Shown here: positions 19,369 to 64,000 of the stretch, piece by piece | Position numbering within the stretch: position 1 is the stretch's first letter | Layout: each line of letters begins with the position of its first letter | Assembly (NCBI RefSeq): GCF_900198835.1 | Contig: NZ_LT900021.1 | Location: 1,922,001 to 1,986,000 of the forward strand | Reading direction: 5' to 3' | Source of the DNA: Thermococcus henrietii | GTDB taxonomy: Archaea; Methanobacteriota_B; Thermococci; Thermococcales; Thermococcaceae | DNA: 64,000 bases | The notes under the pieces: model-generated | Told to the model about the DNA's origin: nothing | Databases searched by the model: none | Seen by the model: only the letters and a program-made list of their open reading frames with translations | Translations under genes and position numbers: made by a program

Positions 19369-19416
19369 ATGTGGTCACCTCCCCATGGGTGCTCATTATT
19401 TATCAACAACGTACAC

Positions 19417-19558: not shown

Positions 19559-19587
19559 CTTTTAAGCAATATATCACTCGATATGTC
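19559..19587 (+). promoter_or_regulatory. TATA box followed by a PadR-type operator (site 1)
   Basis: CTTTTAAG (19559-19566) is followed 2 bp later by the imperfect dyad ATATATC-ACTC-GATATGT (plus C), 19569-19587. The same architecture and nearly the same dyad in inverse orientation occur before padR at 20055-20084. PadR proteins bind ATGT/ACAT-type dyads, so both sites are probably bound by the regulator encoded at 20095. Confidence 0.6.
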
Positions 19588-19631
19588 ACAACAAAACATG
19601 TTTAAAAAATGAATATTTGGGGGTCACAGGA

Positions 19632-44890: not shown

Positions 44891-44964
44891 CGGAAGGGGT
44901 TACGGGAGAACCCTTATAAACTCAGCCACTATTTCACGACCATAAAATAAAACCGGTGATTGCT

Positions 44965-46538: not shown

Positions 46539-46681
46539 CAAAGGCAATTGGGGTGGGAGAATAAAGGGCTTGCGGTCGCTGACTTTACACCACGACCAAA
46601 AGATTATTAACTACCGCAGAGCTATGTGCGAATAACACTTTTTAAAGTACTACGGGGAATCACAAAATCCGGGTGACGAGG

Positions 46682-47521: not shown

Positions 47522-47619
47522 AACCCCGATGAGGCCGAGGGGAAGGCACCTCGAATTGAATTCCCTCAGGACACCCAAACCCCTAAAACTGCCGACCCCT
47601 ATTTTATCCCGGTGGTGCC

Positions 47620-48183: not shown

Positions 48184-48211
48184 TGTTTTGACTAATTTTT
48201 CACGCGATTCC

Positions 48212-48233
48212 GACAGTAGTTTGTCAAAACGAC
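48212..48233 (+). promoter_or_regulatory. 22-bp GACA-N6-TGTC element (copy 1) before the aminotransferase gene
   Basis: GACAGTAGTTTGTC followed by AAAACGAC. A second copy at 50173-50194 (GACATTTGTTTGTC then ATAATGAC) matches at 17 of 22 positions. It lies about 20-40 bp before the TATA region (GTTTATCA, 48251-48258) of the aminotransferase, the activator position. Confidence 0.5.
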
Positions 48234-48292
48234 AGAGGAATACCGAAAAGGTTTATCATTTTAAGGTATAAATTCGGGTTTTAGGTGATGCT

Positions 48293-49453
48293 ATGTTCTC
48301 ACGGAGAATTCAAAATGTTGATACGAGCGCCCTCAGGAGGGTTCTGTCGCTTGTAAGCAGCGGGGAGGTCATATCCTTCGCAGGTGGAGTGCCGAGCGCG
48401 GAGCTGTTCCCAATGGGGGAGCTGAGGGAGCTCGTGGCAGAGGCGAGTGAAAATCCCCTCGCCTTCCAGTACGGCTCCGCCCTCGGGCTGAAGGAGCTCA
48501 GGGACGAGATAGCGCGCTACATGGAGAGATGGGGCGTCAGAACCTCCGCGGGTGAAATCATGGTGACCCACGGCTCCCAGCAGGGGATTGACGCCGTTGC
48601 GAGGGCCTTCGTGAACCCGGGCGACGTGGTTATAGTTGAGGCGCCGACCTACTTCGTGGCCCTCAACACGTTCCAGATTTACGAGCCGGCCTTCCAGCAG
48701 GTGCCGCTCGACGGGGAGGGGATTGACGTTGAAAGGCTCGAAGACCTGCTGAGAAGGCTGAAGGCCGAAGGAAAAACCGTTAGGCTCCTCTACACGGTGC
48801 CGACGTTCCAGAACCCTGCCGGGGTTACGATGAGCGAGGAGCGCAGAAAGGCCCTTGCCGAGCTCGCCGAAGCTTACGACTTCCTCATCGTGGAGGACAA
48901 CCCCTACGGTGAGCTGAGATACAGAGGAAAGGCCGTCAAAGCCGTCAGGGCATTTGTGCCCGACAGGACCGTCTACCTTGGGAGCTTTTCCAAGGTCTTC
49001 GTGCCCGGCTTCAGGATAGCGTGGCTGAACGCGCCGGAAGAGCTCATGGAGCGCCTCGAAGTGGCCAAGCAGACCGCCGACGTTTGCACTAACAGCTTCG
49101 GCCAGTACGTGACGCTCCTCTTCATGAAGAAGGGCCTCCTCGAGCGGCAGATAGAGAGACTGAGGGAGGCCTACGGGCCCAAGATGGAGGCGATGCTTGA
49201 GGCGCTCGAGGAGTTCATGCCTGAAAACGTCGAGTGGACGGAGCCCGAGGGCGGGATGTTCGTGTGGCTGAGGACGGGGAAGAACACGGACGAGCTCCTC
49301 GAGGAGGCGGTAAAGCGGGGAGTGGCATACGTCCCGGGGAGTGCGTTCTACGCCCTCGACCCGAGGGGGGACGAGATGCGCCTGAACTTCACGTTTGAGC
49401 AGATTGACAGGATACATGAGGGCGTAAAGCTTCTCGCCGGGCTCCTCTCCTGA
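48293..49453 (+). CDS. PLP-dependent aminotransferase (class I/II, LysN/aromatic type)
   Basis: 386 residues. VISFAGGVPSAELFP at the N-terminus, YTVPTFQNPAGVTMS, VEDNPYGELRY and the PLP lysine in LGSFSKVFVPGFRIAW place it with the 2-aminoadipate/aromatic/multisubstrate aminotransferases of the MocR-like branch. It could finish lysine, phenylalanine or tyrosine synthesis, or degrade amino acids. GGTGAT lies 4 nt before the ATG. Its promoter shares a 22-bp element with the region before the aromatic operon regulator, favouring an aromatic role, while the relic of a homocitrate-synthase-like gene directly downstream favours a former lysine link. Confidence 0.85.
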   Translation: MFSRRIQNVDTSALRRVLSLVSSGEVISFAGGVPSAELFPMGELRELVAEASENPLAFQYGSALGLKELRDEIARYMERWGVRTSAGEIMVTHGSQQGIDAVARAFVNPGDVVIVEAPTYFVALNTFQIYEPAFQQVPLDGEGIDVERLEDLLRRLKAEGKTVRLLYTVPTFQNPAGVTMSEERRKALAELAEAYDFLIVEDNPYGELRYRGKAVKAVRAFVPDRTVYLGSFSKVFVPGFRIAWLNAPEELMERLEVAKQTADVCTNSFGQYVTLLFMKKGLLERQIERLREAYGPKMEAMLEALEEFMPENVEWTEPEGGMFVWLRTGKNTDELLEEAVKRGVAYVPGSAFYALDPRGDEMRLNFTFEQIDRIHEGVKLLAGLLS

Positions 49454-49483
49454 ACCTCCCTATTTGGAAAGGTCGTCCTTTAC

Positions 49484-49500
49484 CCGCCCCCGCTTTTTTA
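49484..49500 (+). terminator. GC-rich stretch followed by T6
   Basis: CCGCCCCCGC followed by TTTTTTA, 30-45 bp after the aminotransferase stop. From here to 49605 the DNA is AT-rich without a gene; a TATA-like ATTTATATAA (49606-49614) then introduces the relic gene. Confidence 0.4.
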
Positions 49501-49653
49501 CATCCCTCCAGAATTATTCGGAAAATTGGCAATAAACTGAAGAGATATTTTCGAAATTTCTTAGTTTCAAAAATTTATTCGATAAACAAGGCAAATCATC
49601 GAGAAATTTATATAACACCCGCGGTGATGAGTGGTGGGTGATGCCTATTAAGC

Positions 49654-50029
49654 GTGAAAATAATGGTGCTCAACTCAACGCTGAGGGAAGGGGAGCAGAC
49701 ACAGGGAGTGAACTTTTCGCATGAGAACAGACTGAGGATAGGGGTTGCCCTCGACGAGGTCGGCGTTGATTTTATAGAGGCCGGCGCGACCCTCGTCGAT
49801 GCGACCGTGAACGGTATCGGGGAGAGGGCCAGAATAGTTGACCTCGCGCAGCTCTTAGGGGTTCTCCACTACCACTACGGGGTCGAGAAGCTCTACCCCC
49901 CCTCAGCAGGCTTGTGGAGGAGATAACCGGCGTGAGAACCAGCCGAACTGGCCGATAGTCGGTGAAAACGCGTTCACCCACAAGGCGGACCTGCACGTCT
50001 CGGCCGTCGTTAGGGACCCAGCCCTTTAA
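49654..50029 (+). pseudogene. Relic of a homocitrate/2-isopropylmalate synthase-like gene
   Basis: The first part encodes MVLNSTLREGEQTQGVNFS (from about 49663) and DEVGVDFIEAG, the N-terminus of DRE-TIM aldol enzymes (LeuA/homocitrate synthase). It jumps straight to VDATVNGIGERARIVDLAQL, which is normally about 150 residues further on, so most of the barrel is deleted. A frameshift near 49900 follows, after which LVEEITGV, WPIVGENAFTHKADLHVSA and VVRDPAL can be read in other frames up to a stop at 50029. TATA and ribosome-binding remnants persist upstream. The gene is clearly dead. Homocitrate synthase is more likely than LeuA because of the NAFTHKA motif. Confidence 0.8.
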
Positions 50030-50033
50030 ATCC

Positions 50034-50147
50034 TCAAACCACCGCCTTTTCGATGTTTCTACGCGTCGCTATGACCTCGTGCCCCACCTCACTCAGGGCC
50101 CTTGCAACGGCTTCACCGATACTCCCTACCATATCACCGGCGTGCAT
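50034..50147 (-). pseudogene. 5' fragment of a ProC-like dehydrogenase gene
   Basis: Reading leftward from ATG 50147 (GGTGATG upstream) gives 37 codons: MHAGDMVGSIGEAVARALSE then VGHEVIATRRNIEKAVV and a stop at 50034. This is the first beta-alpha-beta of a Rossmann fold. GSIGEAVARAL with HEVIATRR resembles pyrroline-5-carboxylate reductase of Thermococcales. The rest of the gene is absent; its cut end lies 5 bp from the end of the homocitrate-synthase-like relic, suggesting one deletion that fused the two. Confidence 0.6.
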
Positions 50148-50172
50148 TTTACATCACCAGATAACGTTTTTG

Positions 50173-50194
50173 GACATTTGTTTGTCATAATGAC
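50173..50194. promoter_or_regulatory. 22-bp GACA-N6-TGTC element (copy 2)
   Basis: Second copy of the element found at 48212-48233, here 25 bp beyond the start of the ProC-like relic and about 160 bp before the regulator gene. It may have served the relic gene on the minus strand or may still act on the regulator promoter. Confidence 0.45.
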
Positions 50195-50261
50195 TAGAAA
50201 CTGAAGAATTTTGGGCGGTTTTTGAATAAATTGACAGTCTCGTGCCTTTTAGAGGCCAATG

Positions 50262-50292
50262 GACAGCCCAACCTGTCGAAGGATTTAAATAA
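50262..50292 (+). promoter_or_regulatory. Promoter of the aromatic operon: dyad, BRE and TATA
   Basis: GACAG-CCCAAC-CTGTC (50262-50277) directly abuts a BRE-like CGAAGG and the TATA box ATTTAAATAA (50283-50292). An activator site just upstream of BRE is the arrangement reported for Tar control of aromatic genes in T. kodakarensis. The expected transcription start is near 50313. Confidence 0.55.
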
Positions 50293-50324
50293 GCTTCCCT
50301 ACTCCTCAGTTTCGGTGATCGGTG

Positions 50325-50360
50325 ATGTCCCGCCAATGGATAATGCCTCACCAATATTGA
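50325..50360 (+). other. Possible 11-residue leader ORF overlapping the regulator start
   Basis: GGTGATCGGTG precedes ATG 50325, which opens MSRQWIMPHQY and a TGA at 50358-50360. It is out of frame with the regulator gene beginning at 50336. The presence of Trp and Tyr at the head of an aromatic operon is suggestive, but the frame is short and could be chance. Confidence 0.2.
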
Positions 50361-50650
50361 TGGGTCCTGATGGGGACGAAGTGATAAGAAAGCTGATTCT
50401 GAGGGCTTTGAACGAGAACCAGAGGCTAATACTGAGGAGCATCAACGGCAAACACCGTTCCCTCAACTCCCTTCTTGAGGAGCTCAGCAGGCGCGAAAAC
50501 AGGCCCCTCTCCACCCTGAAGCTGAACGCAAGGATACTCAAGGAGCTGGGATTAATTGACTACGGCACGAAAAGCAACCCGAGGCCCGTTAGACTTACCG
50601 AGCACGGAATGCTTGTTCTCAGCATTCTAGAGGTGAGTAAAAATGAGTGA
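50336..50650 (+). CDS. tar: Tar-like winged-helix regulator of aromatic amino acid genes
   Basis: 104 residues. A winged helix covers about 20-95: EVIRKLILRALNENQRLILRSINGKHRSLNSLLEELSRRENRPLSTLKLNARILKELGLI, then a wing with the basic KSNPRPVRLTEHG. Position at the head of the aro operon matches T. kodakarensis TK0271 (Tar), reported as an activator of aromatic biosynthesis genes; the identity is by context and type, not by alignment. I place the start at ATG 50336, 9 nt after GGTGAT; GTG 50315 close to the predicted transcription start is possible. It overlaps the transketolase gene by 8 nt. Confidence 0.75.
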   Translation: MDNASPILMGPDGDEVIRKLILRALNENQRLILRSINGKHRSLNSLLEELSRRENRPLSTLKLNARILKELGLIDYGTKSNPRPVRLTEHGMLVLSILEVSKNE

Positions 50651-51299
50651 GGCCATGAGGGAAACCAAGCTTAGGGCCATGCTCGGGGGGGTTAACAACT
50701 TCCACCTTGACTCCTCCGAGACCTGCCTGGATATACTAGCCGCGGTTCTCAGGAGAAAGAAACCGGAGGACATCGTTATACTGAGCAAGGGACACTCAGC
50801 TCCCGCGTTCTACGTGATGCTCCATGAGATGGGTCTGCTGAGTGACGAGGAGCTCTACAGCTTCGCGGACATTGATGGCCTGCCGAGCCACGTCATGCGT
50901 GGGCTGCCGTTCATAGAGGTCTCCAGCGGCTCCCTCGGCCAGGGGCTTTCGGTGGCCAACGGGATAGCCCTCGCGAAGCGCATGGACGGAGAGGAGGGCA
51001 GGATATACGTCATCCTTGGAGATGGAGAGCTCGACGAAGGACAGGTCTGGGAGGCCGCGATGACTGCCGCACACCACAAGCTTGACAGTGTCATAGCAAT
51101 CGTTGACAGGAACTATTTCCAACTCACGGGGAAGACGGAGGAGATTCTCAACAAGGAGCCCATCGCTGAGAAGTGGCGGGCCTTCGGATGGGTGGTCATT
51201 GAGGTCCCGAACAGGGAGGACGCGATAGCGGAGGCGCTCGACTACGCGGAGAGCATAAAGGGCAGGCCAAAGGTCATAATCGTGAGGTGGGAGGGGTGA
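50643..51299 (+). CDS. Transketolase, N-terminal (TPP-binding) subunit
   Basis: 218 residues. Contains ILSKGHSAPAFYVML, GSLGQGLSVANGIALAKR and the thiamine diphosphate/Mg motif GDGELDEGQVWEAAM. In archaea transketolase is often split; this and the next gene product form the active enzyme. In the aromatic operon it probably supplies or handles the C4/C3 sugar phosphates needed for the pathway. Start ATG 50643 overlaps the regulator stop. GATC does not occur in this gene, like the region to its left and unlike the genes from DAHP synthase onward. Confidence 0.9.
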   Translation: MSEAMRETKLRAMLGGVNNFHLDSSETCLDILAAVLRRKKPEDIVILSKGHSAPAFYVMLHEMGLLSDEELYSFADIDGLPSHVMRGLPFIEVSSGSLGQGLSVANGIALAKRMDGEEGRIYVILGDGELDEGQVWEAAMTAAHHKLDSVIAIVDRNYFQLTGKTEEILNKEPIAEKWRAFGWVVIEVPNREDAIAEALDYAESIKGRPKVIIVRWEG

Positions 51300-52213
51300 T
51301 AGAGAGCTTCAGAGAGGCCTTTGGAAGGGCACTGGTCGAGCTCGGGAAAGAGAACGAAAGGCTCGTGGTGCTGGATGCAGACGTCAAGAGCTCCACGAAG
51401 ACGATATACTTCGAGAGGGCCTTTCCCGAACGCTTTATTCAGGTCGGGATAAGCGAGCAGGACATGGTGTCAACGGCGGCAGGTCTCGCGATAGCGGGAA
51501 AGGTTCCAGTGGTTTCAGCCTTCGCAGCCTTCCTCATGAGGGCTTGGGAGCAGATAAGGAACACCGTGGCGAGAGACAACCTCAACGTCAAACTCATACC
51601 GACGCACTCGGGCTTTTCCGACCACATGGACGGCTCCTCCCACCAGTGCCTCGAGGACATAGCCCTGATGCGCGTGCTGCCGAACATGACGGTTGTCGTG
51701 CCCGCGGACGCTCCATCCGTTCCCGTCCTGCTCAAGCAGGTTATAGAGCACGAGGGGCCAGTTTACATGAGGCTCGGCAGGGACCACGCGGTGAGGGTCT
51801 ACGAAAACCCCGAGCTGGAACTCGGGAGGGCGAGCGTCCTCAGGGAGGGGAGCGACGTCCTCATAGTAGCAAACGGCGTGATGGTTTCGGTGGCGCTGGA
51901 GGTTGCCAAAGCGCTGGAGGGGAGGAACGTCGAGGCAGGGGTGATAGACATGCACACGGTGAAGCCCCTCGACGAGAGAACCCTCCTCAGGATGGCGAGG
52001 AAGGTCGGTACCGTCATCACGATGGAGGAGCACAGCGTCTACGGCGGCCTCGGGGGGGCCGTTGCGGAGGTGCTCTCGGAGAAGCTCTCGAGGAGGGTGG
52101 TTAGGATAGGCACGACCGAGTTCGGAAGGTCGAGCAGGGACTACTTCTCCCTGCTGAGGCGCTACGGCCTCACGACCGAGTCCGTGGTGAAAAGGATTGA
52201 AGGGGTGGTCTGA
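51296..52213 (+). CDS. Transketolase, C-terminal (pyrimidine-binding) subunit
   Basis: 305 residues. DADVKSSTKTIYFERAFPERFIQVGISEQDMVSTAAGLA has the catalytic Glu that activates thiamine (GISEQDM). PTHSGFSDHMDGSSHQCLEDIALMR and the C-terminal TVITMEEHSVYGGLGGAVAEVL complete the Pyr and C domains. GTG 51296 overlaps the preceding stop (GTGA) and follows GGTGGGAGGG; a GTG at 51287 is less likely. Confidence 0.9.
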   Translation: MIESFREAFGRALVELGKENERLVVLDADVKSSTKTIYFERAFPERFIQVGISEQDMVSTAAGLAIAGKVPVVSAFAAFLMRAWEQIRNTVARDNLNVKLIPTHSGFSDHMDGSSHQCLEDIALMRVLPNMTVVVPADAPSVPVLLKQVIEHEGPVYMRLGRDHAVRVYENPELELGRASVLREGSDVLIVANGVMVSVALEVAKALEGRNVEAGVIDMHTVKPLDERTLLRMARKVGTVITMEEHSVYGGLGGAVAEVLSEKLSRRVVRIGTTEFGRSSRDYFSLLRRYGLTTESVVKRIEGVV

Positions 52214-53002
52214 GTGAAGTACAGCAGGGAGTACAGGGATAAAACCGTGGTGAAGGTTGGGGACGTTAAAATAGGTGATGGCTTCACGATAATGGCCGGC
52301 CCCTGCGCCGTCGAGAGCGAGGAGATGATAACGAAGGTGGCCGGCTTCCTCGCGGAGATGGGCGTGAAGGTTCTGAGGGGCGGCGCCTTCAAACCCAGGA
52401 CGAGCCCCTACTCCTTCCAGGGCCACGGCGAGAAGGCCCTCAAATGGATGAGGAAGGCCGCCGACGAGTACGGGCTCGTGACGGTGACGGAGGTAATGGA
52501 CACCAGGCAGGTTCCCCTCGTCGCGGAGTACTCGGACATAGTCCAGATCGGCGCAAGGAACGCCCAGAACTTCGAGCTCCTCAAGGAGGTCGGGAGGATA
52601 GACAATCCCGTGCTGCTCAAGAGGGGCATGGGCAACACGGTTCAGGAGCTCCTCTACTCGGCAGAGTACATAATGAGCGAGGGCAACGAGAACGTGATCC
52701 TCTGCGAGCGCGGCATAAGGACGTTCGAGACCTCAACGCGCTTCACCCTCGACATCTCGGCGGTGCCGGTTGCCAAGGAGCTCACCCACCTCCCGATCGT
52801 CGTCGACCCATCACATCCCGCCGGGAGGAGGAGCCTCGTCATCCCGCTGGCTAAGGCGGCCTACGCCGTTGGGGCAGACGGCATCATCGTCGAGGTTCAC
52901 CCCGAGCCGGAAAAGGCCGTCTCGGACTCGGCCCAGCAGCTAACCTTTGACGGCTTCGCCAAACTCCTCGAGGAGCTGGAGGGCCTCGGATGGAAGGGGT
53001 GA
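52214..53002 (+). CDS. aroF: 3-deoxy-7-phosphoheptulonate (DAHP) synthase
   Basis: 262 residues. First committed step of aromatic synthesis: phosphoenolpyruvate plus erythrose 4-phosphate to DAHP. Single-domain type I-beta, KDO8P-synthase-like: MAGPCAVESEEM, RGGAFKPRTSPYSFQG, IQIGARNAQNF, LLKRGMGNTVQELL, LCERGIRTFE and VDPSHPAGRR. There is no chorismate mutase or ACT domain, so feedback control at this enzyme is not expected. Starts at GTG 52214 behind GGGGTGG. The first GATC of the GATC-rich block is at 52546 in this gene. Confidence 0.95.
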   Translation: MKYSREYRDKTVVKVGDVKIGDGFTIMAGPCAVESEEMITKVAGFLAEMGVKVLRGGAFKPRTSPYSFQGHGEKALKWMRKAADEYGLVTVTEVMDTRQVPLVAEYSDIVQIGARNAQNFELLKEVGRIDNPVLLKRGMGNTVQELLYSAEYIMSEGNENVILCERGIRTFETSTRFTLDISAVPVAKELTHLPIVVDPSHPAGRRSLVIPLAKAAYAVGADGIIVEVHPEPEKAVSDSAQQLTFDGFAKLLEELEGLGWKG

Positions 53003-53973
53003 AGTTCGGGACCCTCTCCGACCTTTCTTCCCTCGTTTCCGAGCTTTCCCCGTACAGGACCGTCGTGCTGACCAACACGACAGTTGAGAGGCTGTGGCTC
53101 GGAAAGCTGGAGGGGATTGACGCGGAGACAATAGTCATTCCAGACGGCGAGGAGCACAAGAACATCGAAACGGTGAAGGAGATCTGGGCGAGGCTGCAGG
53201 GGCTGGGCTTCACGCGGAAGTCCCTCCTAATAGGCCTCGGCGGAGGTGTCATCACAGACATAGCGGGCTTTGTGGCGTCAACGTACATGCGCGGAACGAT
53301 GCTCGGCCTCGTGCCGACCACGCTCCTGGCCCAGGTGGACGCCGCCATAGGCGGAAAGACCGGCGTCAACTTCAACGGCAAGAACATGATCGGCACGTTT
53401 TACCTCCCGGACTTCGTGCTGATAGCCCACGAAACGCTCTCCACCCTCCCGAGGGAGGAACTCCTGAACGGGATGGCCGAGGTGGTCAAGTACGGCGTCC
53501 TCGACGGCAACGTCCATTCCCTCCTGAAAAGGCTCGACTCCGTGGATGACGTCAACCCGGAGCTCGTGAGGGCCTGCGCCGGGGTTAAGCTGAGGGTCGT
53601 TGAGGAGGACCTGAGGGAGGGCGGTAAGAGGCGCGTCCTGAACCTCGGGCACACCACTGCCCACGCCATAGAGAAGCTCTCAAACTACACGATAAAGCAC
53701 GGCTTCGCGGTCTCGATAGGCCTGATGGTGGCGGCGAAGGTCGGCGAAACCATGTACGGCTTCGACCCCGGGAAGGTGGGGGAGCTCCTCGAGAAGTTCG
53801 GACTGCCCACGAGGCTCCCATTCGAACCGGACGAAGTGCTGAGGGAGATGCGGCTCGACAAGAAGTCGTGGTACGGAAAGCTGACCTTCGTCGTCCCGGT
53901 TGACATCGGCGAGGTAACCGTTGAGGAAGTGGAAGAGGACGTTGTGAGGAGGGCCCTGGAGGCGGTGAGATGA
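52990..53973 (+). CDS. aroB: 3-dehydroquinate synthase
   Basis: 327 residues. NAD- and metal-dependent conversion of DAHP to dehydroquinate. Motifs: [14 protein letters not shown], the NAD loop [41 protein letters not shown], the metal ligands in GMAEVVKYG and [12 protein letters not shown], and HGFAVSIG. It overlaps aroF by 13 nt at its start (ATG 52990; GTG 52999 also possible). The presence of AroB shows the canonical DAHP route, not the ADH-synthase route of methanogens. Confidence 0.95.
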
Positions 53974-54611
53974 TAGCGGGTGTTGTGCTGGCCAGAGACG
54001 CCAGGGAAGCGGCAGCAAAGATAGAGGGAAGCAGAGCCGACCTCTACGAGGTCAGGCTCGACCACTTCGAATCCTTCGACCTCTCCCCGCTCAAGCCCTA
54101 TGCGGAGCGGCTGATCCTCACGGTCAGGCGGGCCGAGGAGGGGGGATACAGAAGGATCCCCGAGGAGGAGAGGCTCGAGCTTTACAGAAGGGCGATGGAG
54201 CTGGGACCGAGGTACGTTGACGTCGAAGTTTACTCCGGGATAGCGGGCGAGGTCATTGAGGAGGCGAGGAGGAAAAAGGTGGGCGTCATCCTCTCCCACC
54301 ACGACTTTGAAAAGACCCCCACCTTCGGGGGGCTGATAGGGGTCCTCGACGACATGGAGGAGATGGACCCTGACGTGATAAAGATAGTTCCCACGGCGAG
54401 GGAGCTCAGGGACAACGTGAGGGTTCTGAGGCTTTATGAGCAGGCCGACAACCTGGTGGCCTTCTGCATGGGGCCTCTCGGGAGGATATCCCGGCTGTTC
54501 AGCGCGCTGCTCGCCCCGTTCACCTACGCCTCCATCGACGGCTCCGCGGCGCCCGGCCAGATGAGCGTGGAGGAGCTCGAGAGGCTCCTGGTGATGCTGA
54601 ATGGACGCTGA
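53970..54611 (+). CDS. aroD: 3-dehydroquinate dehydratase, type I
   Basis: 213 residues. Class I aldolase-type enzyme forming a Schiff base; catalytic His in [10 protein letters not shown] and Lys in DVIKIVPTA. Substrate residues are in YEVRLDHFE and LTVRR. C-terminal [12 protein letters not shown] forms the closing lid. ATGA overlap with aroB; the end overlaps aroE by 11 nt. Confidence 0.95.
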
Positions 54612-55419
54612 GACAAGACTATACGGCGTAATCGGGTTCCCTGTCAGGCACTCCCTCAGTCCGGCGATGCACAACGCAGCATTCAGGGAGCTCGGGATAA
54701 ACGCTGTCTACCTCGCCTTCGAGGTCCCCCCCGAGCGGCTCGGAATGGCAGTTGATGGCGTCAGGGGGCTGGGGGTGAAGGGCCTGAACGTCACGATGCC
54801 GCACAAGACGGCCGTAATGGAGCACATCGACGGGCTCTCTGGAGACGCGGAGGAGATAGGGAGCGTGAACACCATAGTCAACGAGGGCGAGCTGCTCGGC
54901 TACAACACGGACGGTATCGGCGCGAGGCGGGCCCTCGAGATGGTGACGCGGCTGGAGGGGAAGGACGTCCTCGTGCTCGGTGCGGGAGGAGCCGGGAGGG
55001 CCATAGCCTACGAGCTCTCGAAGACGTCCAACGTTGTTGTCCTCAACAGGACCCCCGGGAAGGCCAGGGCCCTCGAGCGCTTCGGCGTCATTGGGGATGC
55101 CCTGACGGCCGACAACCTGAGGCGCTACATCAGAGAGGCCGACATCCTCATCAACGCCACGTCCGTCGGCATGAACTCCGACGAGAGCCCGGTTCCGGCG
55201 GACCTCCTGAGGGAGGGGCTGGTGGTCATGGACGTAGTCTACAAACCCCTGCGGACGAGGCTCCTGCGGGAGGCGGCCGAGAGGGGCTGCGTAACGGTCG
55301 ACGGCCTCTGGATGCTCGTGCACCAGGGCGCCGAGAGCTTCCGGCTGTGGACAGGAAAAAAGGTGGATCCAGAGCTGATGAGGGGGGCCGCCCTTGAGGG
55401 GCTACGGAAGGGCTGGTAG
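54601..55419 (+). CDS. aroE: Shikimate dehydrogenase
   Basis: 272 residues. NADPH-dependent reduction of 3-dehydroshikimate. [17 protein letters not shown] and [10 protein letters not shown] (catalytic Lys) bind shikimate; NTDGIGA has the catalytic Asp; [16 protein letters not shown] with NRTPGKA binds NADP. Overlaps aroD by 11 nt and aroK by 26 nt. Confidence 0.95.
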
Positions 55420-56215
55420 CGCCGTCACAGTTGTTAACGCCTTCGCCACCGGAAAGGGCGCGGCCGTTGGGATAGACCTCTGGACCGAGGCGAGGGTGAG
55501 GCTCACGGACGGGGGGATATCTGGGAGCATAACCGTTAGAGGGGAGAGCTACGGGGACACACGGCTCGTTGAGGCGGTCGTTGACGTGGTGAGACGTGAG
55601 ACCGGGGAGGACTTCGGGATCGAGTTCGAGATCAGCTCCGAAATCCCCGTCGGAAAGGGCCTCAAGAGCAGCTCCGCCGCTGCAAACGCCCTCGTTCTGG
55701 CGCTCTGCGATGCCCTCGGAATCGAGATCGAGCCAGTTGAAGCCGTGAGGCTCGGGGTGAAGGCGGCGAGGCTCGCGGGGGTCACAATCACCGGGGCCTT
55801 TGACGACGCGTCAGCCTCCCTTCTCGGGGGCCTCTGCCTGACCGACAACGCGAGGGACGAGCTGATTAAGCGGGAGGAAGTTGAACCAGAGCCCGTCGTC
55901 CTCCTGATACCCGAGGAGACCCTGATGACCGCTGACCTCTCCGGCCTGGACTTCTCGTCCATAGCCCCCTACATCGGGAAGGCCTTCGAGATAGCCGCCC
56001 GGGGCGAGTGGAGGAGGGCCCTCGTGATCAACGGGCTGGTGTACTCGGTCTTTCTCGGCCACCCCACGGAACCCATCGGGACCGCCCTGCGGCTTGGAGC
56101 GGTTGCCGGGCTCAGCGGGAAGGGGCCCGCTTTCTTCGCCCTGACCGATGAGCCGGAGACCCTCTCGGAGGAGTGGGGGCGGTTCGGGAGGGTGGAGATA
56201 ACGAGCCTGAGGTGA
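55394..56215 (+). CDS. aroK: Archaeal shikimate kinase (GHMP family)
   Basis: 273 residues. Archaeal-type shikimate kinase, unrelated to bacterial AroK and built on the GHMP fold: [20 protein letters not shown], the phosphate loop [33 protein letters not shown] and [12 protein letters not shown]. It begins with TTG 55394 within the aroE 3' end, so it is probably translationally coupled. No better start exists in frame before the conserved core. Confidence 0.93.
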
Positions 56216-56219
56216 TACC

Positions 56220-57416
56220 TTGAGGATAGAGCCAGTTGACCGCCTGGAAGGGACGATCAGGGCGCCGCCGTCGAAGAGCTACACCCACAGGGCCTTCTTT
56301 CTCGCGCTCCTGGCGGATGGCGAGAGCAGAATAGAGGAACCCCTCGTGAGCGACGACACGGAGGCAACGCTGAGCGCGGTCAGGGCCTTTGGAGCCGAGG
56401 CGGACTGGAACCGGGTGATTCCCCCGGAGGAGATCCGGCCGGCAATGATAAACGCCAGGGAGTCGGGGACAACAGCGAGGATAAGCGTCGCCGTGGCCTC
56501 CCTCGCGAGGGGAAGGAGCGTGATCGACGGCGAGGGGAGGCTGCGGGAGAGGCCCTTCGCCCCGCTCGTCCGCGCCCTGCTCTCGCTCGGCGTGAGGGTG
56601 AGGGGCGAGAAACTCCCCATCGAGGTGTCCGGGGGGAGCCTTGGAAGCGGGGTGAGGGTGGACGCGTCCATCTCCTCCCAGTTCGTGACGGCCCTCCTGA
56701 TACTCGCGTCCCGAGCCGGAATTCGCGTTGAGTTCGACAACGCTGTGTCGAGACCCTACGTGGAGATGACGCTCAGAACGATGGAGGCCTTTGGCGTTGA
56801 TTTCGAGCGGGACGGCGGCATCACGGTCTTCCCGGGTGTCAGCGGAACGGACTTCCACGTCCCCGGTGACTACTCGAGCGCCGCCTTTTTCCTCGCCGCG
56901 GGGGCTCTGTACGGGAAGGTCAGGGTGGAGAACCTCGACCCGAAGGACGTCCAGGCCGACCGCGCCATCGTCGAAATTCTAGAGGGCATCGGGGCGGGGG
57001 TCAGGGTAGGGAGGGACTACGTGGAGGTCGAGAGGGGAGATCTGAGGGGATTTGAGGTGGACTGCTCCGACTTCCCTGACCTGTTCCCTATTCTCACGGT
57101 TTTGGCCGCTTACGCCGACGGGAGTAGCGTCATAAGGGGCAGACAGCTCAGGTACAAGGAGAGCGACAGGGTTCGGGCGATGGCGCTCAACCTCGCGAGG
57201 GCGGGGGTGAAGGTGAGGGAGCTGAGGGACGGCCTGGAGATCCGGGGCGGGAGGCCGAGGGGGGTTACCGTTGAGGACTTCAACGATCACAGGGTGGCGA
57301 TGGCCATGGCGATACTCGGCCTCGGGGCCCGCGGGGAAACCGTCATTGAGAACGAAGGGGTCGTCGCCAAGTCCTACCCCGGATTTTTCGATGACCTGAG
57401 GGGGTTGCTTAAATGA
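56220..57416 (+). CDS. aroA: EPSP synthase (3-phosphoshikimate 1-carboxyvinyltransferase)
   Basis: 398 residues. Transfers enolpyruvate from PEP to shikimate 3-phosphate. Motifs: PPSKSYTHRAFFLALLADG, ARESGTTARIS, GEGRLRERPFAPL, SSQFVTALLIL, VPGDYSSAAFFLAAGAL, LRYKESDRVRAMALNL and FNDHRVAMAMAI. Starts with TTG 56220, 3 nt after GGTGAT, 4 nt behind aroK. Confidence 0.95.
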   Translation: MRIEPVDRLEGTIRAPPSKSYTHRAFFLALLADGESRIEEPLVSDDTEATLSAVRAFGAEADWNRVIPPEEIRPAMINARESGTTARISVAVASLARGRSVIDGEGRLRERPFAPLVRALLSLGVRVRGEKLPIEVSGGSLGSGVRVDASISSQFVTALLILASRAGIRVEFDNAVSRPYVEMTLRTMEAFGVDFERDGGITVFPGVSGTDFHVPGDYSSAAFFLAAGALYGKVRVENLDPKDVQADRAIVEILEGIGAGVRVGRDYVEVERGDLRGFEVDCSDFPDLFPILTVLAAYADGSSVIRGRQLRYKESDRVRAMALNLARAGVKVRELRDGLEIRGGRPRGVTVEDFNDHRVAMAMAILGLGARGETVIENEGVVAKSYPGFFDDLRGLLK

Positions 57417-58489
57417 AGGGGAGACTGCTTAGCTTCACGCTCTTCGGGGAGAGCCACGGGAAGGCGGTGGGGGTTCTGGTGGAGGGGCTGCCGCCGGGAA
57501 TCGAGGTGGACGTTGAGGAGATGAAGGCCGAGCTCGGGAGGCGAAAGGGAATCCCAAGGTTCTCGACCAAGAGGAAGGAGAGCGATGAGCCGGTGATACT
57601 CTCCGGCGTCTTCAACGGTTTCACAACGGGGACGCCGGTAGCGGTCATGGTGTGGAACCGGGATGTGGATTCATCCTACTACGAGGAGATAAGGAACACC
57701 CCGAGGCCGGGCCACGCGGACTATCCCGCCAAGCTGAAGTTCTTCGGCTACAACGACTACCGCGGCGGCGGTCACTTCTCCGGCAGGCTAACGGTTGGAA
57801 CCGTCATAGCCGGCTACTTCGCCAAGAAGCTCCTCGAGAGGTACAACGTGAGGATAAGGGCCTATCTCAGGCGCATAGGCTCCGTGGAGTGCCCATCTCT
57901 TGAGCCGGAGGAGCTACTCGCCTCGACCAACCCATACTGCCCGGACGAGGATGCCTTTGAGGGAATGCTCCGTGAGATGGAGGACGCGAGGAGGAAAGGG
58001 GACAGCGTGGGCGGTGTAGTCGAGGCCGTGGTGGTGAACGTTCCCCCCGGCCTAGGCGGACCCTGGGAGGAGGACATTGAGGCCGATCTGGCCTCTGCGC
58101 TCTTCAGAATTCCGGCAGTTAAGGGCGTCGAGTTCGGCCTTGGCTTTAAGTTCGCGGAGATGAGGGGGAGCGAGGCGAACGACCCCTTCGTCATCAGGGA
58201 CGGGAAGGTCGTCACCGAAACGAACAACCACGGCGGCGTCCTCGGCGGCATAACGACCGGAATGCCCCTCGTAGTCAGAATAGCGTTCAAGCCAACCCCC
58301 TCCGTATACCTGCCCCAGAGGACCGTCGACCTCGAGAGGATGGAGGAGGTTGAGCTGAGGCTGAGGGGCCGCTTCGACTCCTGCATCGTCCCCAAAGCGC
58401 TCCCGGTGGTTGAAGCGGTAATCGCCTTTGTTCTTGCCGACCACCTTCTGAGGAGGAAGGCGTGGGAGGGGGTAGAAAAAGCCCAGTAA
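57413..58489 (+). CDS. aroC: Chorismate synthase
   Basis: 358 residues. FMN-dependent trans-elimination giving chorismate, the substrate of TrpE/G. Motifs: SFTLFGESHGKAVGVLVEGLPPGI, RPGHADYPAKLKFFGYNDYRGGGHFSGRLTVG, NHGGVLGGITTGMPL, FKPTPSVYLPQRTVDL and GRFDSCIVPKALPV. ATGA overlap with aroA. The stop is only 5 nt from the stop of the convergent trpA. Usual archaeal length. Confidence 0.96.
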   Translation: MKGRLLSFTLFGESHGKAVGVLVEGLPPGIEVDVEEMKAELGRRKGIPRFSTKRKESDEPVILSGVFNGFTTGTPVAVMVWNRDVDSSYYEEIRNTPRPGHADYPAKLKFFGYNDYRGGGHFSGRLTVGTVIAGYFAKKLLERYNVRIRAYLRRIGSVECPSLEPEELLASTNPYCPDEDAFEGMLREMEDARRKGDSVGGVVEAVVVNVPPGLGGPWEEDIEADLASALFRIPAVKGVEFGLGFKFAEMRGSEANDPFVIRDGKVVTETNNHGGVLGGITTGMPLVVRIAFKPTPSVYLPQRTVDLERMEEVELRLRGRFDSCIVPKALPVVEAVIAFVLADHLLRRKAWEGVEKAQ

Positions 58490-58494
58490 AGAAC

Positions 58495-59241
58495 TTAGAG
58501 CCCTGAGAGCTCTTTCACGGTTTCTCTCAGGAGAGGGGCCGCCCCCTCCCCGTGCTCCTCTATGAGCCTTATGAGGGCGCTTCCCACCACAACCCCGTCT
58601 GCACCGCTCCGGAGGAGCCTCTCAACGTGCTCCCTCCGCGAGACGCCGAATCCAACCGCTAGTTTTCTGCTGCACATGGCCCTGGCCCGCCTCAACAGCT
58701 GGAAAGCCGTCTCGGGTATCTCCTCCCTCGCGCCGGTGGTTCCGTAGAGGGAGATCAGATAGACGAAGCCCGTTGATGCCCTGCATATCTCCCTCAGCCT
58801 CTCGTCCGGGGTATTGGGTGCCGCGAGGAAGACCGTCTTTATCCCCTCATCTTTGGCAGTCTCCAAAAGCTCCCCCGCGTGGCTCACGGGAAGGTCAACG
58901 ACGAGGATCCCATCAACCCCGCTGGCCTTCGCCGAGCCAAGGAACTCCCTGATGCCCGTCCGGTAAACCGGGTTGTAGTAGGTCATAAGGACCAGCGGTG
59001 TGTCGTAGTCCCTCCTGAACTCCCTCACGAGGGGGAAGAGGTCCCTCAGCCTGAAGCCGCCCCTGAGAGCCCTTTCGTGAGACGCCTGTATGGTCTTCCC
59101 GTCGGCCATGGGGTCGCTGAAGGGGAGCCCCAGCTCTATCGCCCCGGAGTACTCCGCGATCGAGTCGAGAAACTCCAGGGTGGCCCCAACGCTCGGGTCG
59201 CCGGCCGTTATGTAGGGTATAACCGAGCCCCTCTCAAACAT
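58495..59241 (-). CDS. trpA: Tryptophan synthase alpha subunit
   Basis: 248 residues. Cleaves indole-3-glycerol phosphate to indole and passes it to TrpB. The catalytic Glu is in [19 protein letters not shown] and the catalytic Asp in [18 protein letters not shown]; phosphate is held by the [10 protein letters not shown] and [10 protein letters not shown] loops. Last gene of the trp operon, overlapping trpB by 8 nt. No terminator fits between it and aroC. Confidence 0.96.
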
Positions 59242-60397
59242 CTCCGCTCACCTTCATGACTATTCCGAGGTCCTTGTCGCCCCTGCCCGAGAGGTTCACG
59301 ATTATTACCTCGTCCCGCTCCATCTCCCCCGCGAGCTTCATGGCGTACGCAACCGCGTGTGCCGACTCGAGTGCAGGCAGGATGCCCTCGGTCCGGGAGA
59401 GCTCGTGGAAGGCCCTCAGAGCCTCGTCATCCGTGACCGTGACGTACTCCGCCCTGCCGCTCTCCATCATCTGCGCGTGCTCCGGTCCGACGCCGGGGTA
59501 GTCCAGGCCGGCCGAGACGCTGTGGGTCGGCGTTATCTGCCCCTCCTCGTTCTGGAGGAAGTAGCTCAGCATGCCGTGGAAGACGCCCTCCTCACCGGCG
59601 TTGAGCGACGCGGCGTGGAGACCCGTCTCAAGGCCCTTTCCACCCGCCTCGACGCCTACCAGCCTGACATCATCATTTACGAAGGGGTAGAAGATGCCCA
59701 TCGCGTTGCTCCCGCCGCCCACGCAGGCCACTATGGCGTCCGGAAGCCTTCCCTCGGCCTCGAGTATCTGCGCCCTCGCCTCCCTCCCTATCACGGACTG
59801 GAAATCCCTCACGATGATGGGGTAGGGGTGAGGTCCGACGACCGAACCTATGAGGTAGTGAGAGTACTCGAAGCTCGCGACCCAGTCCCTCAGGGCCTCG
59901 TTTATCGCATCTTTGAGGGTCTTCGAGCCGGAATGGACCGGAATGACGTTCGCCCCGAGGAGCTTCATCCTGAAGACGTTCATGGACTGCCTCTCCACGT
60001 CCTCCGCCCCCATGTAAACGTCGACGCTCATCCCAAGGAGCGCACCAGCCATCGCCGTCGCGACCCCGTGCTGACCGGCCCCGGTCTCCGCTATGAGCCT
60101 GCTCTTGCCCATGAACTTCGCAAGCAGGGCCTGCCCTATCGCGTTGTTCGTCTTATGTGCACCGCCGTGAAGCAGGTCCTCCCTCTTGAGGTATATCCTG
60201 GCCCCGCCTATCTTCTCGCTCAGCCTCCTGGCGTAGTAGAGCGGGGTCGGCCTGCCGGCCCAGGTTCTGAGGTAGTAGTTTAGGGTCCTGTTGAACTCCT
60301 CATCGTCCTTGAGCTCGTTGTAGGCCTTCTCAAGCTCCCTCAGAGGCTCCATTAACGTCTCGGGGACGAACTGCCCCCCGAACCTACCGAACCACAT
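59234..60397 (-). CDS. trpB: Tryptophan synthase beta subunit
   Basis: 387 residues. Condenses indole and serine on PLP. TrpB1-type sequence: [16 protein letters not shown], the PLP lysine in [45 protein letters not shown] and [14 protein letters not shown]. Overlaps trpF by 14 nt and trpA by 8 nt. Confidence 0.97.
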
Positions 60398-61013
60398 TTT
60401 TTACCCTCCCAACGAATTCCTCTATAAGCGTTCTGTCCTTCACGCCGTTCCGCTCAACGCCGCTCGAGACGTCCACGCCGGCCGGTTTGACCCACCTCAG
60501 CGCCTCCTCAACGTTCTCCGGCGTTAGACCGCCCGCGAGGACTATCGGATACCTCCTTGCAACGATGGCGCTCACGCGGTAGTCGTGCCTCCTGCCGCTC
60601 CCTGCCCCCGTGTCGAGGAGGATCCTGTCAACCTCGTACTGGGCGATGAGCTCGAGGAGCCTCTCCGCGTCCTCCTCCGGGGAATCGCTCTCCCTCGGGA
60701 CAGTGAAGGCCTTCATTACCGAGACACCGTACTCGGAGACCAGCCTCTCGACCGTCTTCGGATGCGCGTTGGAGTGCACCTGGACGTACTCCGCCCCGGT
60801 TCTTTCGATGGCGTTGGCCCACTCGGAGAAGCCGACCATGGTTGAGACCAGGTATATCGGGATCTCCGATTCCTCTATCAGGCCCCTGGCAACCGTCAGC
60901 GGAACCCTTCTCCGGGAGTTCGAGTTCACCACTACCCCGGTCGCGTCCACGTACCTCTCCACGAGCCTCAGTTCGTCCGGGTTTCTGACACCGCATATCT
61001 TCACGAACATCAT
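60384..61013 (-). CDS. trpF: Phosphoribosylanthranilate isomerase
   Basis: 209 residues. Amadori rearrangement of phosphoribosylanthranilate. [15 protein letters not shown] has the catalytic Cys; the catalytic Asp lies in [14 protein letters not shown], followed by [15 protein letters not shown] and [16 protein letters not shown]. The start is one of two adjacent ATGs (61013 or 61010) overlapping the trpG stop; GGAGATGA lies upstream. Confidence 0.95.
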
Positions 61014-61582
61014 CTCGTCATCTCCACGAAGTTTTTGATTATCTTGAGCCCCTCCCGGCTCTCCCACTCGGTCAGAACGCTTTCGGGATGGAACTGAACA
61101 CCCTCGATGGGCAGCCTTCTGTGCCTTATCCCCATGATGACGCCGTCGTCGAGGGAGACGGCCGTTACCCTGAACCCCCTGGGAACCTCGAGGACGGCCA
61201 GGGAGTGGTAGCGGCCGGCTTTCAGGGGGTTCTTAACCCCCCTGAAGACACCCCTTCCATCGTGCCTGACCGGGCTGGCCTTGCCGTGCCTCGGGTTCAC
61301 CCTGCCGACCCTTCCGCCAAAGACCTCCGCTATTATCTGGTGGCCGAGGCAGACTCCCAGCACCGGAACCTCCGCCTCGAGGACGATCTCCGGCGAGTTG
61401 CCGACCTCCCTCCTGTCCGAGGGGGAGCCGGGCCCGGGGGAGATGATTATCCCGTCCGGATCGAGCCGCCTCACCTCGGCCGGCGTGAGGGTGTTGGGAA
61501 CAACCCTAACCTCGTCGAAGAGGGAAGCGTACTCGGCTAAGTTCCAGACGAAGGAGTCCCTGTTGTCCACGAGGACTATCAT
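61010..61582 (-). CDS. trpG: Anthranilate synthase component II (glutamine amidotransferase)
   Basis: 190 residues. Class I glutaminase supplying ammonia to TrpE: catalytic Cys in VLGVCLGHQII, and His/Glu in GVQFHPESVLT; SPGPGSPSDRREVGNSPEI is the oxyanion region. ATGA overlaps on both sides (trpE and trpF). Confidence 0.96.
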   Translation of the reverse strand: MIVLVDNRDSFVWNLAEYASLFDEVRVVPNTLTPAEVRRLDPDGIIISPGPGSPSDRREVGNSPEIVLEAEVPVLGVCLGHQIIAEVFGGRVGRVNPRHGKASPVRHDGRGVFRGVKNPLKAGRYHSLAVLEVPRGFRVTAVSLDDGVIMGIRHRRLPIEGVQFHPESVLTEWESREGLKIIKNFVEMTR

Positions 61583-62874
61583 CCCACCACCCCCAGGGCC
61601 TTCAGGACGGCCCTCATCTTGTTCTCGGTCTCCTCGTACTCCCGCTCCGGAACCGAATCTGCCACTATTCCGGCCCCGGCCCTGACCCTCGCAACGCGGT
61701 CTATCTCCGCCATCCTGATCGCTATCGCGAGGTCCGCGTCACCGGTGGCCGAGAAGTAGCCCACCGCCCCCCCGTAGACGCGCCTCCTGCTCCTCTCCAG
61801 CTCGTCTATGATCTCCATCGCCCTTATCTTCGGCGCTCCGGTCAGGGTTCCCGCCGGAAACGCCGCTTCCATGGCATCGAAGGAGGTAAGCCCTTCCCTG
61901 AGTTCCCCGACGACCTCGCTCTCTATGTGCTGGACGTGGCTGTACCGGAGGACGTCGAAGAAGCGGACAAGCCTCACGCTTCCCGCCTTCGAGACCCTCC
62001 TGACGTCGTTCCTCGCGAGGTCCACGAGCATGACGTGCTCCGCCCTCTCCTTCTCGTCGTTTAGGAGGCGTCTCCGGATTTCCTCGTCCTCCTCCGGGGT
62101 TCTGCCGCGGGGGGCGGTGCCCGCTATCGGGTTTATCCTGAAGGTCTTTCCCTCGACGGAGCCCATCGTCTCGGGCGATGCCCCGACGACGGTCTTGCCG
62201 AACTCGAGGAGGAAGGTGTAGGGGCTGGGGTTTATGGAAACGAGGCGCTCGTACACCTCCAGGGAGTCGAGGTCAGTCTCAACGCGGTATTCCCTGGAGA
62301 GAACGACCTGAAAGACGTCGCCCGAGCGGATGTACTCCTTCCCCCTCTCCACCATCTCCACGAACTCCTCAATCCCGGCGTCGGTAGAGACGATGGAGGA
62401 ACCACCTCCGGACCGCTTCCCCCTTCCTGCCCTCCGCACCACGGCCTCGGGGTCGAACGGCGGCTCCCGGAGGTAGAAGAACCCGAAGGTGTTCCTCACG
62501 TGGTCGTACACGAAGACCCAGGGGTAGTAGCCGAAGACCGAAGGCTCCTCGATGTCCCCCTCAACGTAGTTGTGAACAGCGTCGTAGGCGATGTACCCAA
62601 CGAAGCCGCCGAGGAAGCGGTTGCCCTCGACGCTGTCCCTCATGAGGCCCTTCAGGGCGCGGAAGGGGTTGGTCTCGTCCGACATCCTCTCGCCGTCCAC
62701 TAACGTGCCCCCACCCGAGACCTCAACCCTGAACTCGGGCATCGCCGAGACGTAGGTGAACCTGGCCTTCCTGTCCCCCTTCTCGGCGGAGCGGAGGATG
62801 AAGGGCATGTCGAAGTCCCTGAGGGCGGAGTACAGGTCAACGGGATCGACGTACCTCAGGACCTTGAAAGGCAC
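61579..62874 (-). CDS. trpE: Anthranilate synthase component I
   Basis: 431 residues. Converts chorismate and ammonia to anthranilate. The C-terminal chorismate-binding domain is complete: FRINPIAGTAPRGRTPEEDEE, HVMLVDLARNDVRRVSKAGSVRL, SHVQHIESEV, FPAGTLTGAPKIRAMEIIDELE and GGAVGYFS. The N-terminal tryptophan-binding motif (usually LLES) reads FILRSAEKGDRKARFTYVS, so feedback binding may differ. The start is GTG 62874, 19 nt inside trpD, after GGGGGCGAT. Confidence 0.95.
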   Translation of the reverse strand: MPFKVLRYVDPVDLYSALRDFDMPFILRSAEKGDRKARFTYVSAMPEFRVEVSGGGTLVDGERMSDETNPFRALKGLMRDSVEGNRFLGGFVGYIAYDAVHNYVEGDIEEPSVFGYYPWVFVYDHVRNTFGFFYLREPPFDPEAVVRRAGRGKRSGGGSSIVSTDAGIEEFVEMVERGKEYIRSGDVFQVVLSREYRVETDLDSLEVYERLVSINPSPYTFLLEFGKTVVGASPETMGSVEGKTFRINPIAGTAPRGRTPEEDEEIRRRLLNDEKERAEHVMLVDLARNDVRRVSKAGSVRLVRFFDVLRYSHVQHIESEVVGELREGLTSFDAMEAAFPAGTLTGAPKIRAMEIIDELERSRRRVYGGAVGYFSATGDADLAIAIRMAEIDRVARVRAGAGIVADSVPEREYEETENKMRAVLKALGVVG

Positions 62875-63836
62875 GCTATCGCCCCCAGCCTCTCCAGCAT
62901 TTTCTCCCCGAGGGCGCTCTCTGCAATCTCAACGCCTTCCCTGAAATCCCCGGCAACCCCAGCCGCGTACAGGGCGGCGGAGGCGTTCACCAGAACGAAG
63001 TTCCTGTCCTCCTCCCTCCCGCCCCCTGCCAGAACGGCCTTTATGCGCCGGGCGCTCTCCTCCGGGGAGGCGCAGGGGACGGGCTTCACCGGCTTCAGCC
63101 CGAAGTCCTCGGGCGAGACCGTGTAGGATTCCGCGCGTTTGCCCCTGACCTCAACGACGCTCGTTTCGGAGAAGGGACTCACCTCGTCCATCCCGCTTCC
63201 GTGGACGACGAGGGCCCGTTTGACCCCGAGGAAAGAGAGGGCCTCCGCCATGAGCTCCAGGAGGTCGGGGGAGTTCACGCCGACGATCTGGTATGCTGGC
63301 TCCGCTGGATTCGCGAGGGGGCCGAGGACGTTGAACACTGTCCTCACACCGAGGGCCCGCCGGACGGGCATTATGGGTCTGAGGGCCGGGTGGTACAGCG
63401 GCGCGAAGAGGAACGTAAAGCCCGTCTTCTCCACCATCTCCCTCGCCCTTTCCGGCCCGATCTCTGGGTTTATCTCGAGGGCCCTGAGGAGGTCGGCCGA
63501 GCCGCTCTTGGACGTTACAGACGTGTTCCCGTGCTTTGCGACGCGGGTGAATGAGGAGAGGATGAGGGCAGAGGCCGTGCTAACGTTTATCGTTGAGCTC
63601 CCGTCCCCGCCGGTGCCGGCGGTATCGGCCACCTCGCCGAGGTCAACCTTCACCGCAGCGTCGCGCATCGCCTTCGCGAGGCCCGCTATCTCCTCCCCCG
63701 TGTAACCCTTGGTCTGGAGCGCCGCTAGATAAGCCGCTATTCGAACCTCGCTCTCCTTCTCAAGCTCATGGAAGAGACCGTAGGCTTCCTCGAAGCTGAG
63801 GTTCTCTCCCGAGATTATTCTTTCAAGAAGGCTCAT
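62856..63836 (-). CDS. trpD: Anthranilate phosphoribosyltransferase
   Basis: 326 residues. Joins anthranilate to PRPP. DTAGTGGDGSSTINVSTASALI is the PRPP loop; KHGNTSVTSKSGSADLLRAL and FAPLYHPAL contact anthranilate; FNVLGPLANPAEPAYQIVGV is the second metal/PRPP block. ATGA overlap with trpC; overlaps trpE by 19 nt. Confidence 0.96.
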   Translation of the reverse strand: MSLLERIISGENLSFEEAYGLFHELEKESEVRIAAYLAALQTKGYTGEEIAGLAKAMRDAAVKVDLGEVADTAGTGGDGSSTINVSTASALILSSFTRVAKHGNTSVTSKSGSADLLRALEINPEIGPERAREMVEKTGFTFLFAPLYHPALRPIMPVRRALGVRTVFNVLGPLANPAEPAYQIVGVNSPDLLELMAEALSFLGVKRALVVHGSGMDEVSPFSETSVVEVRGKRAESYTVSPEDFGLKPVKPVPCASPEESARRIKAVLAGGGREEDRNFVLVNASAALYAAGVAGDFREGVEIAESALGEKMLERLGAIACLSRS

Positions 63837-64000
63837 ACCTCCACCTCCACGAACTTCCTGAGGAGCTCCCCGGGATCCTCTGCCTTCATGAGCGCCGTGC
63901 CTATCAACGCCGCGTCCGTCAGCCTGAGGGCCCTCCTGAGGTCATCAACCGTGGATATGCCGCTCTCGCTGACCCTGACGTATTTCTTCGGGATCAGGGG
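63833..64000 (-). CDS. trpC: Indole-3-glycerol phosphate synthase, 3' end
   Basis: The last 55 codons of a gene entering from the right edge. The reading YVRVSESGISTVDDLRRALR, then LTDAALIGTALMKAEDPGELLRKFVEV matches the C-terminal barrel strands of TrpC: the SESGI phosphate/substrate loop and the ALIGTALM phosphate-binding turn. It overlaps trpD by 4 nt (ATGA). The catalytic Lys and Glu of the N-terminal part are outside the window. It completes the trpCDEGFBA order. Confidence 0.9.
   Translation of the reverse strand, partial: PLIPKKYVRVSESGISTVDDLRRALRLTDAALIGTALMKAEDPGELLRKFVEVEV

Follow-up and report, generated by a model that had tools for sequence, protein, structure and literature searches.

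Biosynthetic operons are known to be gained or replaced by recombination. Avoidance of the tetranucleotide GATC has been tied to restriction (PMC4687349, PMC2745766), and a survey in the former gives GATC as scarcer than expected in 38 of the 42 genomes that carry DpnI-like enzymes. PMC10609329 lists no persistent methylase for 44 Thermococcales surveyed as a whole, PMC6471742 treats haloarchaea, and the open-licence PubMed Central (PMC) literature, judged by titles and abstract starts, yielded no paper describing the loss of GATC across a Thermococcus clade. Here, we report on 64,000 nucleotides of Thermococcus henrietii (GCF_900198835.1, NZ_LT900021.1, positions 1,922,001 to 1,986,000 of the forward strand; the window), in which GATC is nearly absent as far as aroF, the 3-deoxy-D-arabino-heptulosonate 7-phosphate (DAHP) synthase gene, and dense from there through an aro-trp block ending in trpC. 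The account that we consider probable is long selection against GATC in the clade of this genome, later import of aroF-trpC from a relative outside that pressure, and an insert of apparently mosaic structure.

Like the restriction-site avoidance described in PMC4687349 and PMC2745766, this case concerns the under-representation of a short palindrome often targeted by Type II enzymes; unlike it, the loss is near-complete (97-100% in six of eight depleted genomes) and clade-wide, and no cognate enzyme was found in the source genome among the families searched. The DpnI-linked avoidance set out in PMC4687349 shares the low GATC content and, in relatives of the same genus, GATC methylation systems; it differs in that no DpnI relative was detected here, in a search left uninformative by the lack of any control match. 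As in other cases of operon gain or replacement, the locus is used by another carrier, the operon is absent from sister genomes and its tree conflicts with that of a core gene; unlike the usual case, word avoidance gives polarity, favors recent gain over old retention and suggests two sources.

The machine count gave 37 GATC in the window, 4 in positions 1-52,545 (at 22,006, 31,781, 42,443 and 50,317) and 33 from 52,546 on, in agreement with the original prediction of about 4 and about 33. Expected numbers on the two sides (1-52,545 and 52,546-64,000) were 191 and 54.2 under a maximal-order Markov model and 274 and 71 under a dinucleotide model. The switch had been placed inside the DAHP synthase gene, after two transketolase genes without GATC, and it is there: dense GATC begins at 52,546 in aroF (52,214-53,002, plus strand), and tktN (50,643-51,299) and tktC (51,287-52,213), both on the plus strand, have none. 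Among the 16 four-letter palindromes, all of which were counted as had been proposed, only GATC shifts sharply at 52,546, with no comparable left/right change in the other 15; CTAG is scarce on both sides (16 versus 94 expected on the left, 4 versus 18.5 on the right). When the window was joined to the own-genome stretch that follows it (L001; L-handles denote sampled DNA stretches), a two-change-point fit on GATC returned exactly 52,546-64,408, within which 36 GATC start; the following GATC lies at 72,387. The right part had been called near chance, which stands by base composition (0.87 of expectation, with the operons of five other carriers at 0.34-0.85) but not by the dinucleotide and Markov models, under which it is below chance (0.49-0.61) and close to pooled outgroup DNA (0.52 of the Markov expectation). 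GC content rises from 0.56 to 0.63 at 52,546, but this proposed comparison is weak evidence of foreign origin because a high GC content marks the aro genes of other carriers as well (0.58 versus 0.51 in G011), and the GC jump was set aside as a sign of origin.

The desert is genome-wide in the source genome and a clade trait. G000 denotes the source genome and the other G-handles genomes of its genus-level group (n = 61, G000 included; the genus of the handles is inferred). In 17 stretches of 20 kb from the 2.16-Mb contig (340 kb), G000 had 48 GATC versus 1,126 expected (0.04, Markov), CTAG stood at 0.20 and the other 14 palindromes at 0.64-1.18, so that the depletion is specific to one palindrome beyond neighbor composition, as in restriction-site avoidance. 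GATC relative to base-composition expectation was tabulated for the 51 of 61 genomes with at least 15 kb (samples of 17-67 kb, 407 kb for G000; L272, L001 and L002 excluded). Eight genomes lay at 0-11% of expectation (G000, 0.03; G012, 0.01; G031, 0.00; G050, 0.02; G053, 0.03; G037, 0.02; G045, 0.08; G006, 0.11) and 43 at 22-127% (G048, 0.22; the remaining 42, 0.29-1.27). SMC protein identity to G000 was 98% in G012, G031 and G050, 94% in G006 and G053, 93% in G045, 86% in G048 and 85% or less in the others. In the SMC tree (30 loci from the 60 genomes with a match; 28 proteins used, G044 and G048 being dropped for a missing start motif), seven of the eight depleted genomes were monophyletic (support 1.000). 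G037 lacks a full SMC match and was placed in the clade by its GATC level and one 1.8-kb alignment (83% to G000).

The manner of loss was followed at sites aligned to an outgroup GATC inside an open reading frame (ORF); each query site was counted a single time after removal of those with poor flanks or no clear ORF, and sites from related genomes are not independent. GATC was kept at 13 of 1,119 clade sites versus 407 of 2,950 between outgroups. Losses in all three frames, by several routes that mostly keep the protein and with products that depend on the frame, point to selection on the word rather than to one mutation type. One-step products in the clade were led by GACC (148/297) in the Asp frame, where GATT made up 52/297, and by GATT (145), AATC (108) and GATA (104) in the Ile frame, together 357 of 477; the NGA-TCN frame offered 41 sites, too few for a judgment. 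Where the Asp-frame product was GATT, the amino acid that follows was unchanged in 44 of 52 clade cases versus 13 of 27 between outgroups, mostly by Leu CTN becoming TTG or TTA, including two-base changes such as CTC to TTG. Residual GATCs in clade pairs were shared twice and unshared 92 times (98%), versus an unshared share of 16-70% for other palindromes (CTAG excepted, 91%); as nearly all are private, removal seems to have been active until recently. The long selection on the resident genome that had been claimed is thus borne out by a loss that extends over the genome and the clade and affects each reading frame. Some of the product counts pull the other way: Ile-frame GATT plus AATC reached 253/477 in the clade versus 238/1,164 between outgroups, Asp-frame GATT 52/297 versus 27/609, the synonymous-product share was no higher in the clade than between outgroups, and the Asp-frame GACC share was 0.50 versus 0.60. 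Because GATT and AATC are in excess and the synonymous and GACC shares are not raised, C-to-T supply contributes to the loss, and a mutational contribution remains beside selection. Markov counts of the one-step neighbors of GATC were confounded and were not used.

The aro-trp block is foreign to G000. Ten of the 61 genomes carry aroF, with G000 the only carrier among the eight depleted ones (four of its seven sister genomes are drafts at 91-96% completeness), and a close full-length tktC (identity of 69% or more) occurs in only nine of the ten aroF genomes, other matches being at about 34% or less; G051 has a tktC end fragment. A nearly identical clean junction, in which window positions 48,179-48,188 (the end of a nitroreductase-like gene) are followed within 2-7 bases by 65,225-65,229, marks the empty site in the sisters G031, G012, G050 and G006 and in the outgroup G009. 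G045, likewise without the operon, has another junction, and the clean junction was not shown in G053, G037 and G020. The insert is therefore 48,190-65,225, about 17 kb. Trees of tktN plus tktC, of aroF and of aroB-C, which had been asked for, each pair G000 with G007 (0.948, 0.935 and 1.000), in conflict with the SMC tree (one core gene), which groups G007 with G020 and G009. The claimed import or replacement of aroF-trpC is upheld by the missing aroF and close tktC in the seven sisters, the empty sites and the tree conflict, and further by a second avoided word that is also less depleted in the block (below). The G000 trp genes show 76% identity to G011, and the best match of aroF in the plasmid collection was at about 60% identity. 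The tkt-aro operon is found at this locus in G013 as well and in another setting in G007, and G048 retains at the locus a short piece matching window 50,031-50,111; the tkt-aro site is old, given the shared locus of G013 and the piece left in G048. Separately, G016 carries a broken tktC remnant (L315, G016:C1:215154-215605), which suggests that this species once had the tkt-aro operon and lost it.

Both parts of the original prediction are supported; some observations count against it. The insert is larger (48,190 to at least 65,225), so that its structural edge does not coincide with the first dense GATC, in aroF, and it is apparently mosaic, with GATC-poor margins. No tree changes at the GATC boundary, tkt, aroF and aroB-C all joining G000 with G007, so that only the GATC counts reveal the boundary within aroF. 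The relative closest to the core, G007, has only about 81% DNA identity over 8.3 kb. On the right flank (65,229-66,700), G000 shares 73-74% identity with G031 and with G012, a pair at 89% to each other, and from 66,701 on its identity to G031 is 0.87-0.96; the foreign DNA thus possibly extends about 1.5 kb further right, to about 66,700. That flank is itself variable among sisters, however, with G000 83% identical to G050 (418 bp) and G031 75% to G050.

The second avoided word is GCWGC. GCAGC/GCTGC stands at 0.21 of the Markov expectation in the inner clade versus 0.57 outside, and GCCGC/GCGGC at 0.43 versus 0.77. Avoidance of GCWGC is less clade-specific than that of GATC because G048, G007, G046 and G020 are also low (0.17-0.26). 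The resident DNA (1-48,189) has 12 GCWGC versus 130 expected and 3 GATC versus 183 expected (base composition); its end (46,691-48,188) is 93% identical to the sister G031. Along the locus, GCWGC relative to expectation runs from 0.09 on the left to 0.42 in the left margin (48,190-52,545), 0.35 in the core (52,546-64,408), 0.40 in the right margin (64,409-66,700) and 0.14 beyond. At the resident rate, 1.9 GCWGC would be expected in the margins, which have 7 (P = 0.003), and 3.3 in the core, which has 15 (P = 2e-6). As a marker of the insert this word also has points against it: its change-points are loose (start, 43,946-51,524; end, 55,680-66,935), and the trp half holds few GCWGC sites. GATC is relaxed in the core only, where its density resembles that of other carriers' operons; the margins have 1 GATC versus 14-20 expected (P = 1e-5 or lower). 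On the simplest reading, the insert has two sources, the margins deriving from a GATC-poor one and aroF-trpC from a GATC-tolerant one. Where a word has been erased to 0-3%, as in six species of this clade, later arrivals become visible; recent gain is then more easily told from old retention, and mosaic borders that are blurred in identity and GC content are more easily traced.

Retention of the tkt-aro operon by G000 and its loss by the sisters, with only aroF-trpC overwritten later from a GATC-tolerant relative, would account for the margins in another way. The segment 50,222-52,545 has 1 GATC versus a mean of 4.8 in five other carriers (P = 0.048; G007, also with 1, excluded), and the shared locus of G013 and the remnant in G048 fit an old resident operon. 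The margins are not depleted in GCWGC, however, and four sisters and the outgroup G009 share their clean junction almost to the base; we regard retention as unlikely. In the preferred account, selection against GATC in the clade, and less specifically against GCWGC, was long-standing and worked until recently, and aroF-trpC, with its GATC-rich core, would have come later from a relative free of GATC pressure. Homologous recombination through neighboring genes would be the likely route, given that in G013, another carrier, this locus also holds the tkt-aro operon, and the margins may have come from a GATC-poor source and the core from a GATC-tolerant one.

Two other stretches bear on GATC-poor sources. 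The tkt-aro operon of G007 (L256:7780-15950) has 1 GATC in 8.2 kb, while the G007 genome sample stands at 0.59, and at 19 GATC sites of the G000 aro genes, G007 has AATC or GATT at 6, against 2 of 95 in five other carriers; the operon therefore seems also to have been exported from a GATC-poor lineage. In a metagenome-assembled genome labeled Thermoplasmata archaeon AUK050, a 10.6-kb trp-aro stretch (L022:3241-13890) has 0 GATC versus 41 expected by base composition and a GC content of 0.52, with flanks at 0.41 that contain GATC; it represents either a further import out of a GATC-poor lineage or a contig chimera.

Which activity erased GATC, where the searched GATC methylase and nuclease families give no convincing match, is the question that the locus raises. 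Our best guess, on which we are evenly divided, is a long-lived restriction activity of the clade, specific to GATC, that was recently lost from G000 or belongs to a family outside those searched. The search results count against this agent. The GATC-specific restriction-modification system that the original prediction proposed to look for was not found, no family among the eight searched (one without a working control) giving a convincing match in G000. In searches of the 61 genomes, DpnII, C5 and McrC had no match in G000, and DpnI had none in any genome, although its controls gave none either, which makes that search uninformative. DndC was only sub-threshold in G000, as in 55 of 61 genomes, and N6_N4 gave G000 two weak sub-threshold matches, all 61 genomes having some. 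D12 gave one marginal partial match (22.1 bits, cut-off 22) inside a recent island (L272, below). HsdS, searched in G000 only, had no match. An active cutter of bare GATC is unlikely in G000 now because scattered GATCs persist and no GATC methylase was recognized. Similar methylase-like ORFs of about 426 amino acids lie in GATC-poor surroundings in G031 (L168) and G050 (L165), with partial D12 matches barely over the cut-off; G000 has no such match.

The main rival to restriction activity as the agent is conflict with GATC adenine methylation, in which the word would have been removed because Dam-type systems are mobile and a lineage whose nucleases attack methylated DNA could tolerate an incoming methylase only with a genome of its own that lacks GATC. 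Such systems circulate in the group: full-length D12 methylases occur in 12 of 61 genomes (none among the eight depleted) and the DpnII nuclease in 3, plus one fragment. A modification sensor is also at hand in the genus, as McrB of T. gammatolerans is reportedly one, with a preference for methyladenine. The count of McrC is less favorable, with a match in 4 of 8 depleted and 24 of 53 other genomes and none in G000. The under-representation of GATC next to DpnI-like enzymes (38 of 42 genomes, PMC4687349) would agree with such a conflict, but no DpnI match was found in the 61 genomes, in the search without control matches noted above; overall, we hold methylation conflict to be rather improbable. 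Absence of GATC may instead serve as a self-mark, a methylase-less GATC nuclease policing incoming DNA while a near-GATC-free host stays safe, which we think highly doubtful; blocks such as aroF-trpC would then settle only with the nuclease activity off, lost or blocked. Scarcely credible is a loss without selection through deamination of a modified cytosine in GATC, which would yield the excess of GATT and AATC given above but for which the main Asp-frame product, GACC, is a T-to-C change, the amino acid is conserved at 44 of 52 Asp-frame GATT sites even by two-base changes, and no C5 methylase is above cut-off in the eight depleted genomes (G037 has a single match, below threshold); deamination acting alone was rejected, since it would give neither GACC nor the Leu recoding.

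No Rfam or tRNA features were found in the window. The left margin (48,190-52,545, plus strand), which is not at this site in four sisters, has 1 GATC and 5 GCWGC and comprises an aminotransferase ORF (48,293-49,453), a 142-amino-acid ORF (50,222-50,650) without a Pfam match, tktN and tktC. Its sole GATC (50,317-50,320) falls in an aligned column that reads GATC in G007, G011, G041, G056 and G057 and not in G013. The tktN and tktC genes, the N- and C-terminal parts of a transketolase, were named by partial matches to full-length NCBIfam transketolase models, below cut-off as expected for halves. The seven aro genes of the block are encoded by the plus strand and its six trp genes by the minus strand, with trpC across the right edge. 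aroF is above cut-off for TIGR01361 and NF006421, and aroB, aroD, aroE, archaeal aroK, aroA and aroC (52,990-58,489, plus strand) are above NCBIfam cut-offs, with GATC density as in other carriers. trpA, trpB, trpF, trpG, trpE and trpD (58,495-63,836, minus strand) are likewise above cut-off, trpG solely through the subfamily model TIGR00566. The 3' part of trpC (63,833-64,000, minus strand) belongs to a gene that reaches 64,519, beyond the window, with the last dense GATC at 64,408; its name follows from its place in the gene order and from the corresponding ORFs of L262 and L022, with no profile search.

Some residual GATCs of G000 are clustered, in a GC-poor island from about 669 kb, an ORF in L019 and a CRISPR (clustered regularly interspaced short palindromic repeat) array in L016. 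L016 has two such arrays (8627-10281 and 14756-16550), with 2 GATC in 50 parsed spacers versus 6.7 expected, which is not decisive. The L019 ORF (17888-19810) has 7 GATC in a GC-poor patch, and its part from 17978 to 19810 has no Pfam or PADLOC match. The island (L272:4300-18000, about 669-683 kb of the source genome) is a second GATC-rich one, with a GC content of 0.38, methylase-like, PLD-domain and DEAD-helicase ORFs, GATC, GCWGC and CTAG at expectation and GCSGC at 0 of 7; it looks like a recently acquired defense island.

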